Shown here one piece after another: positions 4,463-62,019 of a DNA stretch of 64,000 bases (positions within the stretch are counted from its first letter, which is position 1; each line of letters starts with the position of its first letter). The stretch spans positions 139,349-203,348 of the forward strand of contig JAJEAL010000134.1 in NCBI GenBank assembly GCA_022822785.1, in the 5' to 3' direction. The notes beneath the pieces are model-generated. The model was not told where the DNA came from. It made no database searches and saw only the letters and a program-made list of their open reading frames with translations. The translations under genes and the position numbers were made by a program. Source of the stretch: Candidatus Poribacteria bacterium. Its GTDB lineage: Bacteria; Poribacteria; WGA-4E; PCPOR2b.

Positions 4463-5779
4463 TCATTTTTTGGTTTTGTCCAAATATTCCCGGATGCGCT
4501 GTTCATCCCCAATGTCGGTGGGTTCATAGTATCGCACCCCGCACAAGGCGTCGGGGAGGTGGTCCTGTTGGACGATGTGGTCTTCAAAATCGTGAGCGTA
4601 TTTGTATTCTGTCCCGTAGCCGAGTTCTTTCATTAGCTGCGTGGACGCATTTCGCAGGTGGAGCGGTACAGGATAGGCGGGTTTTTCGCGCACATCTTCC
4701 TGTGCTGCAAGTAGGGCTAGATAGGCAGCGTTACTTTTTGGGGCGCAAGCGAGATAGACGGCGGCGTGTGCCAAATTCAGTTGTGCTTCTGGCAGCCCGA
4801 CAAACTCCACCGCACGAGCGGCTGCATCTGCGATTAGCAATCCCTGTGGATCTGCGTTTCCGATGTCTTCGGATGCGAGGACCACCATCCGCCGTGCGAT
4901 GAAACGGGCATCCTCACCCGCCTCCAACAGCCGTGCCAACCAATAGACGGTGGCATCGGGGTCAGACCCGCGCATACTCTTGATGAAGGCAGAAATCAGA
5001 TTATAATGTTCGTCGCCCGATTTGTCGTGGCGCAGCATCCGTTTCTGTACCGCGTTATGAATGGTTTCGGCATCGAGGTGGCGTACCTGTTCCTCATCGG
5101 GCTTGCGGGTCTGTACGGCGAGTTCCAGGGCGTTGAGGGCGAGACGCACGTCACCATCAGCTACCCGGATTAGAGCGTCTATGGCGTCTTCCGAAAGGGC
5201 AATTCGGTATTTTCCGAGACCATGTTCGGCATCGGTGAGGGCACGGTCTAGCAACTGACGGATATGAGATGACTCTAGGGGCTGGAATGGATACACCTGC
5301 ATCCGGGAGAGGAGTGGGGCATTAACTTCAAAGGAGGGATTTTCGGTCGTTGCGCCGATTAACACAAGCGTTCCATCTTCCACGAAGGAGAGTAAGAAAT
5401 CCTGTTGCGCTTTATTGAAGCGGTGGATTTCGTCTAAGAACAGGATGGTACGTTGACTGTGGAATTTAAGACGTTCTTCGGCTTGGGCGATTTGCGTGCG
5501 TAGCTCCGGCACCCCGGTTGTGCTGGCGTTGACATGCTCAAAGTGTGCCTTGGTGTGGTGAGCGATAATTCGCGCTAGGGTAGTTTTCCCACAGCCCGGT
5601 GGTCCCCAGAAGATGCAGGACATCACTGTATCCTCTGCAATGGCAAGATAGAGGGGCTGCTCGGGGGCTAATAGATGCTCCTGCCCCACAAACTCTTCGA
5701 GCGTGTCGGGACGCAGCCGGTGCGCTAGGGGACCAGATTGTTTCCGGTTCTGCTGCAGATTCTGGTCAAAAAGGTCCAT
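4463..5779 (-). CDS. rarA: Replication-associated recombination protein A, AAA+ ATPase
   Basis: A MgsA/RarA/WRNIP1-family clamp-loader-like ATPase that acts at stalled forks. In 438 residues the order is: '[35 protein letters not shown]' leader, Walker A 'GPPGCGKTT' (~59-67), Walker B '[16 protein letters not shown]' (~112-125), sensor 1 '[12 protein letters not shown]', sensor 2 region, and the family's C-terminal tetramerisation part ('[30 protein letters not shown]', '[19 protein letters not shown]'). Length is normal. The track start (5824) is a TTG. I prefer the ATG at 5779 because GAGGAGG lies 9 nt upstream and family members start with 'MDLF'. Confidence 0.97.
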
Positions 5780-5867
5780 GACTCTCTGCCTCCTCGCAAT
5801 AAATTGGGGTTTCGCTACCGTCAACCTGATGCACGTTAGCGGATAAATCTATCCGGCAATTTGACGA

Positions 5868-6170
5868 CTATTCTGCCAGCTGATGGACAACGCTGTTGAT
5901 TTTGTCGTCCATTGTTTGCGATCGGTCGGTGCGGGTGCCGAATTTAAGGGTCGTACTTATCCGAGGGGCGCCCATCTCATGAACAACCTGATGACACTGT
6001 TTAATTGCGGCAAAAACTGTATCCCAATCCCCTTCGATGTTGGTGCCGTAGGCGTGTAGTTTGATTTTCAGGCCAGCGTCCTTGAGAATACGTTCGCACT
6101 CAGCAACATACTTGGAGACCGACACGCCGACGCCAATCGGTACGACACATAAATCTGCGATAACATTCAT
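5868..6170 (-). CDS. MTH1187/YkoF-type thiamine-binding family protein (UPF0045)
   Basis: 100 residues of the UPF0045/DUF77 ferredoxin-like fold: 'MNVIADLCVVPIGVGVSVSKYVAECERILKDAGLKIKLHAYGTNIEGDWDTVFAAIKQCHQVVHEMGAPRISTTLKFGTR'. The 'P.G.G.SvS.YV' and 'GT.iEGdwd.v...i...h' elements are typical. Homologues bind thiamine or a related pyrimidine and may sense or buffer it. No thiamine genes lie nearby, so the ligand here is an inference from the family. Confidence 0.85.
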   Translation of the reverse strand: MNVIADLCVVPIGVGVSVSKYVAECERILKDAGLKIKLHAYGTNIEGDWDTVFAAIKQCHQVVHEMGAPRISTTLKFGTRTDRSQTMDDKINSVVHQLAE

Positions 6171-6303
6171 GTTGGGCAGCTCCTTTCGTCTAAAGTTACC
6201 AGTTTTTCTATTCCTGACCTAGGTTGCTAGGTTCTGTTGATATTTCATCGTAACCAGATAATAGAGAGACATAAATCAGTTCACTGACGTAAAATCCCAG
6301 AAA

Positions 6304-6337
6304 AGAAACCGAGTTTTGAAGAAAAAACTCGGTTTCT
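6304..6337. terminator. 14-bp perfect hairpin, possible terminator of the PLP-enzyme gene
   Basis: 6304-6317 (AGAAACCGAGTTTT) pairs perfectly with 6324-6337 across a 6-nt loop. On the minus strand the stem is followed by TTTCT, giving a short T-rich tail about 100 nt past the stop of the PLP-enzyme gene. It could equally be a dispersed palindromic repeat; the 65-aa track ORF across it is a shadow. Confidence 0.5.
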
Positions 6338-6417
6338 GGCAGCTTTTCCAGTGGCTTGAACGTTTCTCGCGACAGCAAAAGCAAAATGTCAGCACGCCCT
6401 AGCAACTTGCATTATTC

Positions 6418-7428
6418 CTATAAAATCTCATCCCCATAGGCGAACAGGGCAGGCGTACCGCCTGTGTGTACAAACACCACCGTTTGATCCGCCGTAAATT
6501 GCCCTTGTCGGATATGGTCGATTAACCCGCCAAACGTCTTGCCGGTGTAGACGGGATCCAACACTAACGCCTCTGTTTGTGCGGCTAAGACGACTACTTC
6601 TTTGCTAGCTGGTGTTACCACGCCGTAGGCTTCGCCGGCATAGTCCCCGTAGCTCTCAAAATCGGCTCCTGAAAAATCCAGATCCAGATCGAGTATCTGA
6701 GATACCTCGTTGGCGACCTTTGCGAGGTTGGCGTTCGCTGCTATGTTATCTTGTGGGCTAGGACTGATCCCTACAATCCTCAGTGGGATCCCCAACGCCC
6801 TTGCCCCGACCACTAGTCCGACGTGGGTGTGCACCCCTGAGCAGACATAGAGTGCATCGGGACGAATGTCTCGTTCTTGAAGCTGATCCCATAGTTCGAG
6901 GAAGCCGTCCACATAGGAGACACTTCGTAGGTAGTATCCGTCGCTGCTGGTGTTGTATACCCGGCGCCCTTCCGATCTTAGGCGTTCAAGAATTGCTTCC
7001 CTCTCTTCGGCGGTTTCCACGAGATTAACTTCCGCCCCAAACAGGTGGCTCAGCAGCAGGTTTCCGTTCACCGGCTCGGCGCGAGCATCCTTTTTGCCTA
7101 CCATCACCGCTTTCAGTCCTAGCCGTGCGGCGACCGCCGCCGTCAATCGTGACTGGTTGGACTGCGACGCGGCACCGTGCAGCAGGACATCGTATCCGCC
7201 CTCCACGGCGGGGGCAACGGAATACTCAAACTCTCGGACCTTATTTCCGCCAAATGCCATGCCGGTCTGATCCTCCCGTTTCACGAGGATATGGGGACCG
7301 TCTAAGACTTTGGATAGGCGTGGACAGTCGAGCAGCGGTGTTGGCAGGTCTGCCAAAGACAACCTCGGCAACCGGTCGAGCCGCGCTCGTAGTTCGTTAG
7401 CAGTAACAACAGTTTTGATATTCGACAT
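6418..7428 (-). CDS. D-cysteine desulfhydrase / ACC deaminase family PLP enzyme
   Basis: A fold-type II PLP enzyme of 336 residues, usual length for the family. The Schiff-base lysine is in 'GMAFGGNKVREFEY' (Lys63); the substrate loop 'LLHGAASQSNQSRLTAAVAARLGL' and the C-terminal 'VFVHTGGTPALFAY' are typical of the DcyD/ACC-deaminase group. Members cleave D-cysteine to pyruvate, sulfide and ammonia, or deaminate 1-aminocyclopropane-1-carboxylate. The two activities cannot be separated by eye, and D-cysteine desulfhydrase is the commoner one in bacteria. AAGGAG precedes the ATG. It is monocistronic by spacing. Confidence 0.9.
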   Translation of the reverse strand: MSNIKTVVTANELRARLDRLPRLSLADLPTPLLDCPRLSKVLDGPHILVKREDQTGMAFGGNKVREFEYSVAPAVEGGYDVLLHGAASQSNQSRLTAAVAARLGLKAVMVGKKDARAEPVNGNLLLSHLFGAEVNLVETAEEREAILERLRSEGRRVYNTSSDGYYLRSVSYVDGFLELWDQLQERDIRPDALYVCSGVHTHVGLVVGARALGIPLRIVGISPSPQDNIAANANLAKVANEVSQILDLDLDFSGADFESYGDYAGEAYGVVTPASKEVVVLAAQTEALVLDPVYTGKTFGGLIDHIRQGQFTADQTVVFVHTGGTPALFAYGDEIL

Positions 7429-55452: not shown

Positions 55453-55899
55453 TCAATAATCGCTTGTATCGGCTCCACCGGTTTGTGCTGTCATTCCGTC
55501 AGCTGCTTCATATTTCGATGCACATTTCGTTTGAAGTTTGGTCGCGACGATTAGATTTTCGGAGGCGTTATATTTGCCTTGGACAAAAACGTTTCCACCG
55601 TCCTTGAAGTTGTCGGGTCTGAGTTTATTCGCATAGATTACATTAACCTTTGCTTTTCCATCACGATCTCGAACCGCAAAAGCGAGCTTAAACGCTGTTG
55701 GATCCCATTGGGTGGTCCCTTCCGCAATCAACCCATCCACTTGGATGCTTCTATTGTGAACTTCTTGTGCGTGTGCAACGAGCGCGTCGGGCGTGAAGTG
55801 TCTCATGCTCGTTTGTTGTACCCCTGCGACAACGAGGAATGTCATCGCAGCCGCTAAAATGAAGCTCGCGATGATAATTTTGACTCTTCTTCGATTCAT
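55453..55899 (-). CDS. ccmE: Heme chaperone CcmE, Cys (CxxxY) type
   Basis: 148 residues: N-terminal membrane anchor 'IIIASFILAAAMTFLVVAGV', an OB-fold beta-barrel ('SIQVDGLIAEGTTQWDPTAFKLAFAVRD.DGKAKVNVIYANKLRPDNFKDGGNVFVQGKYNASENLIVATKL'), and a heme-binding tail 'QTKCASKYEAADG'. Position 126 is Cys, four before Tyr130, where proteobacterial CcmE has His (HxxxY). The CxxxY form is known from Desulfovibrio and archaea. It overlaps the cobA-hemD stop by 4 nt (ATGA), so heme-precursor and cytochrome genes are translationally joined here. Confidence 0.93.
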   Translation of the reverse strand: MNRRRVKIIIASFILAAAMTFLVVAGVQQTSMRHFTPDALVAHAQEVHNRSIQVDGLIAEGTTQWDPTAFKLAFAVRDRDGKAKVNVIYANKLRPDNFKDGGNVFVQGKYNASENLIVATKLQTKCASKYEAADGMTAQTGGADTSDY

Positions 55900-57434
55900 G
55901 TTTGCTTCTCCTTTGATGTATAGAACTTGACAATTTCTTCCGCGAGCGATTCGACAGATGCCTTTTTCGCAACGATGTCTACCGTTAGTCCATGTGCTTT
56001 CACGGTTGCGGCGGTCGAGGGGCCAATGACCGCAATGTGGGTACTGGCGAGTAGAACGGGGGGTGGATGTGAGTTGAACATCTCAAGGAAGTTAGTAACA
56101 GTTGACGAGCTGGTAAATGTTACCATGTCAATGCGCCCGCTGTGTAGGTCCCCTTCGATTGTCTCACGTCCTTCCGCCCCGGCTTTCATCGTTTCGTAGA
56201 GTGGAATTGCCTCAACGATGGCGCCCCTATCTTGTAAACCGTTTGGTAAATCATCAGCCGCAATCGAAGCGCGCGGTAGCAGAATCTTTTGTCCTTCCAC
56301 CCCTTCTAATTCCGCTGCAAGGACCGCACCGCGATATTGCGACGGAACGTAATCCGCGCGAATCCCAATCTGATCCAATGCCGCTACAGTTTTTTGTCCT
56401 ACCGCACAAATACGAGCGTTACCCAACGACCGTGCATCTTTGCCCTTTTCTCGCAGGTAGCGATAGAAATAATCTACAGCGTTGACGCTAGTAAAAATAA
56501 TCCATTTGTACGTTGCAAGCTGAGCGATTGCCCGATCCAATACGACGTTGTTGGGAATTGGCAGCGTTTCAATCGTCGGGAATTGGATGACTTCAGCGCC
56601 GTAAGATTCAAGGCATTCCGCGAAGTCGCTGGCTTGTGCCCGAGCGCGGGTGACGGTAATCCGCCGACCGAAGAGCGGTTTTCGATCAAACCAACGCAGC
56701 TGTTCGCGCAAGGCGTTGACATCGCCAATGACGATTGCCGCGGGATTGCGAAAATTAACAGCTGCTGCCCTTTGGGCGATATTCACGAGAGGCCCCTCAA
56801 CAGTTTTTTGTTGTGGGGTTGTCCCCCAATGAACAAGGGCAGTCGGCGTATCAGGTGGGCGTCCATGTTGAATCAGACGCGCTGCGATTTCCCGTAAGTG
56901 TCCGACCCCCATAAGAATAACTAGCGTATCCACGCCTGTGGCGAGCTGTTCCCAACGGATTGGTGAATTGGCTTTCAATGCCGCCGAATGCCCTGTGACA
57001 AACGCGATGGACGATGAATAGTGTCGATGCGTCAAGGGGATACCTGCATACGCTGGTGCAGCGATTGCCGAGGTGATGCCAGGCACGACCTCAAAATCAA
57101 TACCCGCTTCCACAAGTGTTAGCGCCTCTTCTCCGCCTCTCCCAAATATAAACGGGTCCCCCCCTTTAAGTCGGACAACCGTTTTGCCTGTCCGCGCGTG
57201 CTGAATCATTAGGCGATCGATTTCCGCTTGACGTTGTTGCTGCTCGCCTATCATTTTTCCGCCATAGATCTTTTTCGTATGGGGCGGGCAGTGTTCAAGG
57301 AGTTTGACGTTAATAAGCAGGTCATAGATTACGACATCCGCGCTTTGCAGACACTCAATCCCTTTAAGCGTAATCAGTTTTGGATCGCCCGGTCCCGCTC
57401 CAACAAGATAGACTTTACCATTTATGACAGCCAT
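55896..57434 (-). CDS. Fused uroporphyrinogen-III C-methyltransferase / uroporphyrinogen-III synthase
   Basis: 512 residues. The N-terminal ~250 are SUMT/CobA ('[35 protein letters not shown]', '[22 protein letters not shown]', '[22 protein letters not shown]'), which methylates uroporphyrinogen III to precorrin-2 for siroheme or B12. The rest is HemD ('[35 protein letters not shown]', '[17 protein letters not shown]', '[16 protein letters not shown]'), which cyclises hydroxymethylbilane. This fusion is common in anaerobes and several phyla. It follows hemC with a 10-nt gap, so pathway order is kept. Confidence 0.96.
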
Positions 57435-57444
57435 TACTCACGCT

Positions 57445-58386
57445 TTATGTTCCACTTTGAAGTTTATGTGCCCCATTCTGAATCAACTTTGTTGCAAGGT
57501 TGACCGCTAACTCGTGGGCACCCGCCAAATCATCCCGATAAGATTGGGATTCAAGGCAACCTGATAGCCGCTCTAGCAGTCGATGCTTTCCGTCAGGGCT
57601 GCACACAGTAGCGGTCAGATGAAGTGCCTTATCGTTCAGCTGTGCGTTTACGCCAATCGGAACTTGACATCCACCACCCAATTCACCCAATACGGTCCTC
57701 TCGATAAGCACTTCAGTTTCGCTATGGCTATCGTTAATTGCGTCTAACAGCGTCTTAATTTCCGAGTCATCTTCGCGTGTTTCTACCCCCAATGCGCCTT
57801 GTCCAGCGGCGGGGACCATCTGATTAATCTCAAAATACGCTGCAATAATTTCTTCGCCGATCAGTCGTTTAATCCCCGCCGCAGCGAGGATGATCCCATC
57901 AAGGTCCGTTTCATGCAGTTTGCGAAGGCGTGTGTCGAGATTGCCGCGAACATCCACAACCTGCAAATCGGGACGCAGGTGTAAAAGTTGACATTTACGG
58001 CGTGGACTTGTCGTTCCAATTTTTGCTCCTTTTGGGAGTTGATCGAGAAGCAAATCAGATTTTGTAACTAGCACGTCGCGAGGATCTTCACGGGCAGGGA
58101 TAGCGGCGATACAAAGTCCATCGGGCAGATCTGTCGGCAGGTCTTTCATGCTGTGGACGGCGAGGTCAATGGTGCCATCCAAAAGGGCGTTTTCGATTTC
58201 CTTGGTAAAGACCCCTTTACCGAGACCAACGAGGGAGCGATCTAGAATTTTGTCCCCGGTCGTCTTGATGACTTTGCATTCGATTGAGCGGTCGGGAAAG
58301 TGACGGTGCAGACATTTCCTCACATATTCCGTTTGCCAGAGAGCGAGTTGGCTACCGCGTGTGCCGATGGTGATAGTTTGTTTCAT
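57445..58386 (-). CDS. hemC: Hydroxymethylbilane synthase with a repeat-derived 9-residue insertion
   Basis: 313 residues from the ATG at 58386 (GGGAG 5 nt upstream); the track start is 30 codons early. 'KQTITIGTRGSQLALWQ', 'HSMKDLPTDLPDGL', 'GTTSPRRKCQLLHLRPDL' and 'RGNLDTRLRKL' are HemC signatures. Cys240 in 'LGGGCQVPIGV' carries the dipyrromethane cofactor. It polymerises four porphobilinogens. Residues 277-285 (CLESQSYRD) are extra: without them the stretch from 'PDG' to 'NGA' has the same length as E. coli HemC as I recall it. Those nine codons are the palindromic repeat (see the separate entry). Confidence 0.96.
   Translation of the reverse strand: MKQTITIGTRGSQLALWQTEYVRKCLHRHFPDRSIECKVIKTTGDKILDRSLVGLGKGVFTKEIENALLDGTIDLAVHSMKDLPTDLPDGLCIAAIPAREDPRDVLVTKSDLLLDQLPKGAKIGTTSPRRKCQLLHLRPDLQVVDVRGNLDTRLRKLHETDLDGIILAAAGIKRLIGEEIIAAYFEINQMVPAAGQGALGVETREDDSEIKTLLDAINDSHSETEVLIERTVLGELGGGCQVPIGVNAQLNDKALHLTATVCSPDGKHRLLERLSGCLESQSYRDDLAGAHELAVNLATKLIQNGAHKLQSGT
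57532..57558 (-). repeat. 27-nt REP-like unit inserted in frame in hemC
   Basis: CCCGATAAGATTGGG followed by ATTCAAGGCA, the same unit as the intergenic ones at 40389, 44913 and 48610. The boundary falls exactly on codons 277-285, in the surface C-terminal domain. Confidence 0.75.
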
Positions 58387-58671: not shown

Positions 58672-59982
58672 TTATTCGGTCGTGTCTGTCTCTTCCAAAC
58701 CGAACAGTTCCTGCAGTGTACGGACATACTGTAGATGGTCGCCATCACTATCGTCGGTCGCCTCAATAAGGTCCGGATTCAAAGCAATCTGACGTAAATT
58801 TTTTGTCGGTTGATGCAACAATTTTTTGATAATCGATTGTGTCATAGCTTCGACCATTTTCTGCTGTTTGGAGGTCAGCTGTGCTTTGTCAAGACAGGTT
58901 CCTAACTCTCTTGAAGCTACCCCCTGAAACTGCTGATGGAGCGCTTTAATCGTTGGATTGACTTCAAAGGTCTGTAGCCGTGACTGAAATTTTGCGACCT
59001 CCTCTTTGACAATCTGCGTTGCGATTTCCGCTTCCTGCTCCCGGTCTTCGAGGTTGGCAGCGACCACCGCCTCAAGGTCATCGATGTTATACAGGAAAGC
59101 ATTGTCCACTTTGCTGACTTCAGGGTCGATATCACGGGGGACAGCGATGTCGATCAGGAACATATAGCGATGCTTCCGCTGTTTCATAATTTCTGCAAGT
59201 GCAGGGCGATCGATCAGGTAATGCGGAGCGTCAGTTGAGCTGATTACGATGTCCGCTTCGACGAGGAAGCTCAGATCGGCGTCGTATGCTAAGGGGATTC
59301 CGTTAAATTTTTTGGCGATGTCAACTGCCCGTTGATAGGTTCGGTTCGCCACGATGACTTGGGAAACGTTGTTCTTCACAAGGTGTCGCGCGGTTAATTC
59401 GCTCATCTCGCCGGCACCGATGATAGCAACCGTTTTATCTTCTAAACTCTGAAAGATTTTCTTGGCAAGTTCAACCGCAGCATAACTGATGGACACCGCA
59501 CCGGCAGCGATATTGGTCTCGGTCCGGACTCGCTTGCCGACGCTTATCGCTTTGGCAAACAGGCGGTTGAGTATATCGCTGGTCGCTCCAGCAGCAAGTG
59601 ATTGGGCATACGCCTCTTTGATCTGACCGAGAATCTGGGGTTCGCCGACTACCATAGAATCGAGGCTTGCAGTCACATTGAAGAGATGACGAACCGCATC
59701 AACGTCTTGATGGCTATATGTAAACTTCTTCAGCTCTTGCGGTTCGATTCGATGGTAATTTGATAAAAATTCAGAAAGCACGGCACCGCCATCTTTGCTG
59801 TGGATCACGGCGTAGATTTCGACGCGATTGCAGGTTGAGAGAATTGTGGCTTCCCTAACGTCGGGCTGTTCGGTTAAAAGTTGGAGAGCTTCGGTAAGCT
59901 GGCTTTCAGAAAACGACAACTTTTCTCGAAAATCGAGCGGTGCAATATGATGACTGGTACCGACAGTGATAATTTGGTTCAT
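58672..59982 (-). CDS. hemA: Glutamyl-tRNA reductase
   Basis: 436 residues. First step of the C5 pathway: reduces glutamyl-tRNA to glutamate-1-semialdehyde. The catalytic Cys51 is in 'ATILSTCNRVEIYAV'; 'FNVTASLDSMVVGEPQILGQIKEAYAQS' and 'SISYAAVELAKKIF' follow; the NADPH domain is 'TVAIIGAGEMSELTARHLVKNNVSQVIVANRTY'. The C-terminal dimerisation domain ends 'LRQIALNPDLIEATDDSDGDHLQYVRTLQELFGLEE', longer than usual; part of it is encoded by a repeat-like stretch. No clear Shine-Dalgarno; 10 nt after the CcsA/HemX-like gene. Confidence 0.96.
   Translation of the reverse strand: MNQIITVGTSHHIAPLDFREKLSFSESQLTEALQLLTEQPDVREATILSTCNRVEIYAVIHSKDGGAVLSEFLSNYHRIEPQELKKFTYSHQDVDAVRHLFNVTASLDSMVVGEPQILGQIKEAYAQSLAAGATSDILNRLFAKAISVGKRVRTETNIAAGAVSISYAAVELAKKIFQSLEDKTVAIIGAGEMSELTARHLVKNNVSQVIVANRTYQRAVDIAKKFNGIPLAYDADLSFLVEADIVISSTDAPHYLIDRPALAEIMKQRKHRYMFLIDIAVPRDIDPEVSKVDNAFLYNIDDLEAVVAANLEDREQEAEIATQIVKEEVAKFQSRLQTFEVNPTIKALHQQFQGVASRELGTCLDKAQLTSKQQKMVEAMTQSIIKKLLHQPTKNLRQIALNPDLIEATDDSDGDHLQYVRTLQELFGLEETDTTE
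58766..58792 (-). repeat. Probable REP-like unit inside hemA
   Basis: TCCGGATTCAAAGCAATCTGA matches the right half of the unit, but the palindromic left half is diverged. Read in a different frame from hemC it encodes 'RQIALNPDLIE' near the C-terminus. It could be an old insertion or chance. Confidence 0.5.
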
Positions 59983-59992
59983 TTGTTAAATA

Positions 59993-60808
59993 TTAAAATG
60001 CGTGTATACTTGGTAAAAAGAGATTAACGCCTACATAGGTAAACAGCACAGCAGCCAAACCGATAATTGCTGAATAGGCGGTTTTGCGACCGCGCCACCC
60101 GAAAACTTGACGAATGCTGAGCTGTAACACATAGACAAGCCAGGTGGCGATTGTGAAGATTACCTTTGAATCGACCCATGTCCATTTGACCTCTTTAACA
60201 TATTGAGTCCAAAGTGCTCCAATAAGAATGCCCATCGTCATCAGAATTACGCCGACGAGAATACACTTGTGTCCGAGTTCATCGGATCTGCCAAGCGCGG
60301 GCAGAAGATTGTAGATAAGCGTGTGCTGCTTCTCACGAATTTTCCTCTCTTCAATCAGGTACATTAGTCCAAAGCCAAACGCGGCGACGAATGCGGCGTA
60401 AGACAAAAAAATAACAGCAGAATGGGCGATAAGCCAGTAGTTTTGCAAATAAGCGGGAATTGCAGTATTCTCTTGAGTCTGTAACGTATAAGCGACCAAG
60501 GTGGCTATGAACGCAGCGGGAACGACAAAGACCCCAATCGTGCGTAGATGAGTCAGATGTGCGATACACAGATAAATCAAAATGATCGCCCACGCGAGGA
60601 AGGAGGTTGAGTCATACCAGTGTGCCATCAGGTGTCCCGCGTGCTGCCAACGCAGAAGAATAAAAGCTGAGTGCAGCACAAAACCGCCTATCGTTACCCA
60701 ATAGCCGTACTTTGCGACCCTTTGATTCCCGGTGCTCAGAAAAAGAATATGAAGTATGCATCCCGCCAAATAGACGAGCAAAAGCGTGTGAAAAAATAGT
60801 GAGTTCAT
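59993..60808 (-). CDS. CcsA/HemX-like membrane protein
   Basis: 271 residues, about eight hydrophobic segments. 'YWLIAHSAVIFLSYAAFVAAFGFGLMYLIEERKIR' and 'GALWTQYVKEVKWTWVDSKVIFTIATWLVYVLQLSIRQVFGWRGRK' match the CcsA/CcmC/HemX superfamily. The WWD-like loop ('VKWTWVDSK') and the conserved His residues suggest heme or precursor handling. Immediately before hemA this is usually HemX, which lowers GluTR levels in Bacillus. Its cytochrome-assembly relatives are also in this cluster, so a role in either process is possible. Confidence 0.88.
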   Translation of the reverse strand: MNSLFFHTLLLVYLAGCILHILFLSTGNQRVAKYGYWVTIGGFVLHSAFILLRWQHAGHLMAHWYDSTSFLAWAIILIYLCIAHLTHLRTIGVFVVPAAFIATLVAYTLQTQENTAIPAYLQNYWLIAHSAVIFLSYAAFVAAFGFGLMYLIEERKIREKQHTLIYNLLPALGRSDELGHKCILVGVILMTMGILIGALWTQYVKEVKWTWVDSKVIFTIATWLVYVLQLSIRQVFGWRGRKTAYSAIIGLAAVLFTYVGVNLFLPSIHAF

Positions 60809-60846: not shown

Positions 60847-62019
60847 TTACCCGCAGATTTGCTGAAGAGCATATTGACGCGCGGCGTCGGTTTGCCCGCT
60901 ACGAATCATATTGAAAGTGCATTTAACTGCACAGTTAGGGTCGTCAAAACCTAAGCAGCATTTTTGCACTTCACTTTCAGGAACCTGATCGATAAGATGA
61001 TCGAAGTATCGCTGACGAGCTTTCTGAGTCGGAATAGATTCCATCACCGTAGGTCGTAGCGATCCGAGAAAATCGATAAACTCCCCATAACCGTTGTTTT
61101 CAAACTGATGGGCAAGCTGGGTTTGTACAGATTCGATGCTACATCCTCCGACTACACCTACGTCACTCTCCTGAGTGTGATTGGTAGCAATACTGATAAT
61201 CAGATCGCCGTCTCTTACCAAAGGCGGCGTGGTAAATGTTCCCAATTCTGGGGCATTGATGAATTCAATTAGCTGACACTGATCGCGAGCAGCGAAGGCA
61301 AAATTTTCGGAACCGACATCGTCAACTAACACAAAAAATGTACCTGATATGCGTTCCAAACTGTTAGGGGTCGGGGCGATTCGCTCGACAGTCGCACCGC
61401 AACGCAGTAGCAGATCGAGTCTTTGCGCGAGGGATTCACTCATCTTCTCCGAATCGCTGATTGCGATACAGTGTCGATTTTCCAACAAAAAATAGACCGG
61501 ATACGGAAGACCGTGCCCTTGGAGAGACGGGGCGAAATTGGTCTCAGATGGTTCATCGTAAAGGGATATCGCGCTGAACTTCGATTCGAGGTATTCCCGG
61601 ATACGTCTGGACAGCGCTGGGCTTTTGCCGCTTGTGGAGATACTGATTGTTAGGTCGTCATGCGTGATCACGGACGCTGCTGCAAAAGTGCATTCAGGAA
61701 TTACGTCAACCACATTGACAAGATTGATTCCGCCCCCTTCGTGTGCTTCCTTGAAGACCTGTGTGTTAATCTCCGGCAAATCGGTTGCCGCACAGACGAG
61801 AAACATCCCTTCTGTATCACCGGACCGGAACTGGCGTTTATGCCATGTTATCTGATTGCTCCGTGCCCAGTTAGTATTGGTTTCCGTCGCTTCAGGGCTG
61901 ATTAACGTTACATCTCCGCCGCTGCGTAGCAGAGAGAGCACCTTTCGTTCGGCGACAATCCCTGCACCCACAACGAGGCACTTGCGGTTCTGGAGGTTCA
62001 GATATGCTGGATAGAACAT
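60847..62019 (-). CDS. Met8-like precorrin-2 dehydrogenase with a degenerate second copy and a Cys-rich tail
   Basis: 390 residues. The first half is a CysG-N/Met8 domain: 'YPAYLNLQNRKCLVVGAGIVAERKVLSLLRSGGDVTLISP', 'FLVCAATDLPEINTQVFKEA', 'NVVDVIPECTFAAASVITHDDLTISISTSGKSPALSRRIREYLE'. It oxidises precorrin-2 to sirohydrochlorin with NAD. The second half (from ~170) repeats the plan ('YPVYFLLENRHCIAIS', 'TPPLVRDGDLIISIATN'), but the GxGxxA loop is lost. The tail has four Cys ('KCCLGFDDPNCAVKC', 354-367). It lies between the prenyl synthase and HemX-like genes; with the cobA-hemD fusion it would make siroheme precursors. Confidence 0.86.
   Translation of the reverse strand: MFYPAYLNLQNRKCLVVGAGIVAERKVLSLLRSGGDVTLISPEATETNTNWARSNQITWHKRQFRSGDTEGMFLVCAATDLPEINTQVFKEAHEGGGINLVNVVDVIPECTFAAASVITHDDLTISISTSGKSPALSRRIREYLESKFSAISLYDEPSETNFAPSLQGHGLPYPVYFLLENRHCIAISDSEKMSESLAQRLDLLLRCGATVERIAPTPNSLERISGTFFVLVDDVGSENFAFAARDQCQLIEFINAPELGTFTTPPLVRDGDLIISIATNHTQESDVGVVGGCSIESVQTQLAHQFENNGYGEFIDFLGSLRPTVMESIPTQKARQRYFDHLIDQVPESEVQKCCLGFDDPNCAVKCTFNMIRSGQTDAARQYALQQICG

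Follow-up and report, generated by a model that had tools for sequence, protein, structure and literature searches.

In siroheme synthesis, CobA-HemD produces uroporphyrinogen III and converts it by methylation to precorrin-2, on which Met8-type enzymes act (PMC7242693; also established pathway knowledge). The best studied relative, CysG, is a domain-swapped homodimer. Each of its active sites is a cavity formed between one chain's Rossmann fold and its partner's helical domain, and residues D104 and P133 matter in the enzyme (PMC7018833). The SirC enzymes are related to Met8 and act as dehydrogenases only, and for the yeast enzyme Met8p, how chelation is catalysed is stated to be unclear (PMC7242693). 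Among the [2Fe-2S] haem ferrochelatases, internal insertions often carry adjacent cysteines, both of which are cluster ligands (PMC8529089). In the literature searched, we found no description of a tandem or pseudodimeric form of Met8 or CysG.

Here, we describe a poribacterial gene that specifies two Met8 units in a single chain, encoded in a window of 64,000 nucleotides (the whole stretch of DNA that was analysed). The best reading of the protein is a single-chain pseudodimer siroheme synthase that has a single active site and a loop that is a candidate for metal or Fe-S binding, that is, a variant architecture of a known enzyme family.

A tandem Met8 gene within a tetrapyrrole cluster

The gene and its neighbors on the same strand are arranged as follows.

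60847..62019, (-) strand: complete gene for a 390-aa tandem Met8, a candidate single-chain siroheme synthase (ORF; coordinates unchanged from the initial annotation)
59993..60808, (-) strand: HemX/CcsB-like membrane protein, next gene (PF01578; TIGR03144 below cut-off)
58672..59982, (-) strand: hemA (TIGR01035 above cut-off)
57445..58386, (-) strand: hemC, start inferred (ORF; syntenic in relatives)
55896..57434, (-) strand: cobA-hemD fusion (TIGR01469 and PF02602 above cut-off)

Synteny in relatives reveals a conserved cluster, in transcription order hemL-PPS-Met8x2-hemX-hemA-hemC-cobA/hemD. The genes that we take to be hemL, PPS (polyprenyl synthase), and hemC are named from sequence and family knowledge. 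The initial annotation pointed to the nearby hemX-like gene and hemA as a place where feedback would be useful; the arrangement reflects this conserved set of tetrapyrrole genes and is not evidence of feedback. In family f4 (loci L060 and L071), and also at L047, no HemX/CcsB-like gene was detected between Met8 and hemA, because it is either absent or highly diverged.

Within the protein, the following parts are distinguished.

61681..62019, (-) strand: Rossmann/NAD domain of copy A, aa 1-113, bearing GxGxxAER and the catalytic-type Asp105 (PF13241, E 8.5e-30; motif 68/68; D105 68/68)
61570..61680, (-) strand: central (dimerisation) region of copy A, aa 114-150, bearing SGxSP (PF14824; SGxSP 67/68)
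61510..61569, (-) strand: linker, aa 151-170, replacing the copy A helical domain (pLDDT <50 at 159-165; single Met8s have a helical domain here)
61234..61509, (-) strand: degenerate Rossmann domain of copy B, aa 171-262, NAD glycines absent (copy A matched to copy B at 97.6-98.1% by hhalign; GxG 0/68)
61096..61233, (-) strand: central region of copy B, aa 263-308, which has lost the substrate loop SGxSP (alignment; SGxSP 0/68)
60985..61095, (-) strand: the only helical domain of the protein (CysG_dimeriser), aa 309-345 (PF10414; hhalign of single Met8 against the tail)
60919..60984, (-) strand: Cys loop, aa 346-367, with Cys354, Cys355, Cys363, and Cys367 (68/68 invariant; absent from single Met8s)
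60850..60918, (-) strand: final helix in the helical domain, aa 368-390 (corresponds in alignment to the last helix of single Met8; the model shows a helix at 377-389)

The protein belongs to the Met8/CysG-B/SirC family. Copy A carries a Rossmann motif of the GxGxxAxRK type, a central region and a helical domain are present, and the protein scores 139.9 bits against cysG_Nterm (TIGR01470), for which the curated cut-off is 62.3. Pfam places NAD_binding_7 at residues 6-113 (E 8.5e-30), Sirohm_synth_M at 122-146, and CysG_dimeriser at 310-344, and matches no family on residues 165-300. PF14824 and PF10414 both score above cut-off, but copy B stands between them. Asp105 aligns with CysG D104, so that the catalytic Asp of a class III chelatase is present in all 68 homologues, and copy A Pro134 is the counterpart of CysG Pro133. 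One chain comprises two protomer units rather than the ordinary single copy, which makes the architecture a variant one.

The repeat and its asymmetric losses

The initial annotation proposed that the Met8 unit is duplicated and that the second copy is degenerate. Both points hold. In profile-profile comparisons (hhalign, 68 homologues), copy A matched copy B at 97.6-98.1%, and copy B together with the tail matched the single Met8 of class relatives at 99.1-99.5% over approximately 185 columns. As controls, the Rossmann domain of the HemA encoded in this gene cluster reached 0.8% against copy B, and column-shuffled copy B reached at most 0.2%; these two controls show that the repeat signal does not come from a likeness shared by Rossmann folds in general. 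Modelled alone, the second half gave a pLDDT of 79 and a pTM of 0.68. Its 25 best PDB matches were all CysG, SirC, and Met8p, and the next fold was far weaker. By structure prediction and profile comparison, the second half has the complete fold of a Met8 protomer, ordinary helical domain included, and the repeat stands: the second half is not simply the usual dimerisation/CysG_C part. The full-length model is confident (pLDDT 86.9, pTM 0.85). The first strand of copy B (aa 173-177) is ordered in that model and disordered when copy B is modelled alone, which suggests packing against copy A.

The two copies have lost different parts. GxGxxAER is present in copy A in 68/68 homologues and SGxSP in 67/68; in copy B, each of GxG and SGxSP is absent from all 68, bearing out the proposal that the NAD glycines have disappeared from the second half. 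Copy A, for its part, has no helical domain of its own, and at that place a short, poorly ordered linker is followed by copy B. Thus, the Rossmann fold of copy A and the helical domain of copy B, which correspond to the two halves of one CysG-type site, have been kept, while the halves of the other site, the Rossmann fold of copy B and the helical domain of copy A, have decayed or been lost. This pattern is our main reason for inferring a single-chain pseudodimer with one active site.

In the mechanism that we propose, copy A would contribute the Rossmann fold that binds NAD, together with the catalytic-type Asp and the platform for the substrate. The dimerisation sheet would be completed by the central strands of copy B, whose C-terminal helical domain, as we would place it, would close over the copy A Rossmann fold to form the one site. 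The second site of the normal dimer would be gone, its components, the Rossmann fold of copy B and the helical domain of copy A, having decayed or been lost. The tandem protein would oxidise precorrin-2, delivered by the CobA-HemD fusion, to sirohydrochlorin, and Fe2+ insertion by the same protein is probable. Overall, we consider it probable that the protein works in siroheme synthesis as an enzyme of the Met8/CysG-B kind: a domain-swapped homodimer rebuilt in one chain with one site that oxidises precorrin-2, probably inserts Fe2+, and most likely uses its Cys loop to hold a metal or a [2Fe-2S] cluster.

A conventional intermolecular dimer would account for the same domains differently. Copy A would pair with copy A, or with copy B of another chain, to give two cross-chain sites per dimer, and copy B would serve as extra scaffold. 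The precedent is CysG, the best studied relative and a homodimer (PMC7018833). Nonetheless, one chain already has a complete set of site halves, and the monomer pTM of 0.85 suggests a well-packed single chain, and we judge the intermolecular arrangement to be quite improbable.

Distribution, divergence, and iron insertion

The tandem form occurs in 70 of the 73 genomes of the order, some of which are assembled as one to four contigs. The three genomes without the tandem gene also have no neighboring hemX (in one, there is a marginal hemX match only), as expected for assembly gaps. In the public collection, the named close relatives of the source genome are all Poribacteria and all metagenome-assembled, which raises the possibility of an assembly or binning artefact. 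We assign this idea a negligible chance: the distribution and the synteny rule it out, given that 70/73 genomes, several of them in one to four contigs, share the architecture and the gene order and that the three exceptions fit assembly gaps. A scan of public genomes for exact peptides returned four matches, in Poribacteria only. Viral contigs gave no match, and no plasmid matched with the second half.

Seven class relatives match through copy A only and carry single Met8s. The catalytic Asp is replaced in two of six such single Met8s (L042 and L045). One of these, L042 (G067, 5854-6438, (-) strand), is a 195-aa single Met8 with a partly absent helical domain and His in place of the catalytic Asp, in a genome that has CbiX. 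In another of the seven class relatives, Met8 is fused to HemA in one 553-aa frame (L046 in G062, 4721-6400, (-) strand).

In a tree, 16 sampled copy B sequences form one clade (100/100) on long branches, outside copy A and the single Met8s. Mean pairwise identity over the Rossmann parts is 0.50 for copy B versus 0.76 for copy A, showing that copy B evolves faster. A single, separate clade of faster divergence indicates that the tandem form predates the radiation of the order and that copy B, instead of disappearing, has persisted under a constraint of a different and weaker kind. Copy B may have arisen by tandem duplication or by fusion of two paralogues.

The rapid divergence of copy B, its four invariant cysteines, and the location of the gene in a tetrapyrrole cluster could be taken to favor the role suggested by the initial annotation, that of a decayed copy turned into a tetrapyrrole- or metal-binding regulatory domain for pathway feedback. 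This reading is not supported, and we regard it as very unlikely. Copy B holds the only helical domain, which provides half of the active site in the CysG structure and is a catalytic half in the Met8/CysG family, and a role for copy B as a partner in structure and catalysis therefore fits better than one as a regulator. No regulatory family in Pfam or NCBIfam matched. Moreover, a hemX neighbor is not general, because in f4 the tandem gene directly precedes hemA with no detectable hemX between them.

A separate sirohydrochlorin chelatase, CbiX/SirB, was found in none of the 24 order genomes tested and in eight of the 10 class relatives tested; CbiK was found in none of 13 order genomes. Siroheme-type reductases (NIR_SIR) are present in 13/13 order genomes tested and in seven class relatives as well. 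By elimination, the absence of a recognisable CbiX or CbiK alongside siroheme enzymes argues that iron insertion is probably a further activity of the tandem protein. The absence of CbiX coincides with the tandem form once in the tree, and the coincidence thus represents a single evolutionary event, not statistical proof. CbiH scored above cut-off in only two of 18 genomes, both from class relatives (G062 and G063). Five other class relatives (G066-G070) have a single Met8 and strong CbiX matches with no CbiH above cut-off, and for these genomes B12 synthesis fails as an explanation of CbiX.

A monofunctional, SirC-like precorrin-2 dehydrogenase in pseudodimer form would leave iron insertion to an unrecognised enzyme or to HemH. 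SirC relatives do act only as dehydrogenases (PMC7242693), and HemH is present in 11/13 genomes. Against this possibility, which we rate as rather unlikely, the separate SirB/CbiX that accompanies SirC was found in no order genome tested (CbiX 0/24, CbiK 0/13), and D105 is invariant in 68/68 homologues. The bifunctional pseudodimer is the favored reading.

The cysteine loop and comparison with known systems

The initial annotation described a four-Cys tail added to the protein. Its Cys cluster is real: Cys354, Cys355, Cys363, and Cys367 are at the positions given there and, when checked for conservation, proved invariant in 68/68 homologues with the fixed spacing CC-x7-C-x3-C. The tail, by contrast, has not been added to the protein: it consists of the Met8 helical domain, with an insertion of approximately 20 aa that contains the four cysteines and lies ahead of the last helix. 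In the alignment, the insertion is not found in the single Met8s of class relatives, and the stretch preceding the cysteines varies in length and sequence among homologues. In copy B, Cys184 (68/68) and Cys207 (66/68) are likewise conserved.

As a motif only, CC-x7-C-x3-C fits the [2Fe-2S] chelatase consensus CX(1,11)CX(1,11)C with adjacent cysteines in 68/68 homologues; the resemblance to haem ferrochelatases is one of motif, not of family. From its sequence, the putative Cys site plausibly binds a metal or an Fe-S cluster, with Zn or a thiol switch as possible alternatives. Situated beside the presumed active site, the loop would most likely bind a metal or [2Fe-2S] and could stabilise or gate the site. 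The loop is not required for chelation as such, because Met8p and CysG chelate metal without one. Separately, poribacterial HemH has an N-terminal PTPG-CC-x5-C-x5-C loop that fits the [2Fe-2S] ferrochelatase consensus in 3/3 cases (L086, G000:C57:41900-43300; L082; L083).

More tentatively, we can imagine a one-site pseudodimer siroheme synthase whose helical lid holds an Fe-S cluster. It would be a chelatase of class III (Met8-type) that gained an Fe-S loop like that of the unrelated class II haem ferrochelatases, and the iron or redox state might then control iron insertion. We hold this more specific version to be possible rather than probable. The Cys loop would then place the Met8 fold among the chelatases suspected of Fe-S clusters; to our knowledge, the role of such clusters in chelatases is still unknown. 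More broadly, if the single-site pseudodimer is correct, the protein would show how a domain-swapped enzyme with two sites has been reduced in nature to one site, and would offer a clean system for separating dehydrogenase from chelatase chemistry.

Among known systems, CysG of E. coli and Salmonella, through its CysG-B module, is the best match in fold and sequence. It has the same Rossmann, central, and helical domains, and its Asp104 and Pro133 have counterparts in copy A. CysG, however, is a homodimer with two sites and is fused to SUMT, whereas the tandem protein combines two Met8 units, one degenerate, with a Cys loop, and has its SUMT on the separate CobA-HemD protein. Met8p, the bifunctional dehydrogenase/ferrochelatase of yeast, belongs to the same fold family, and we propose the same two activities for the tandem protein; Met8p is single copy, and no Cys loop is described for it in the literature searched. 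To SirC, the Bacillus precorrin-2 dehydrogenase, the fold of copy A corresponds at 2.0 A over 142 columns (3dfz). SirC has a single copy of the unit and relies on SirB as a separate chelatase, whereas no CbiX/SirB was found in the order with the tandem form. Finally, the [2Fe-2S] haem ferrochelatases of the Myxococcus xanthus type have an inserted loop with adjacent cysteines and two more, CX(1,11)CX(1,11)C (PMC8529089). These are class II chelatases of unrelated fold, and their likeness to the tandem Met8 is confined to the motif.
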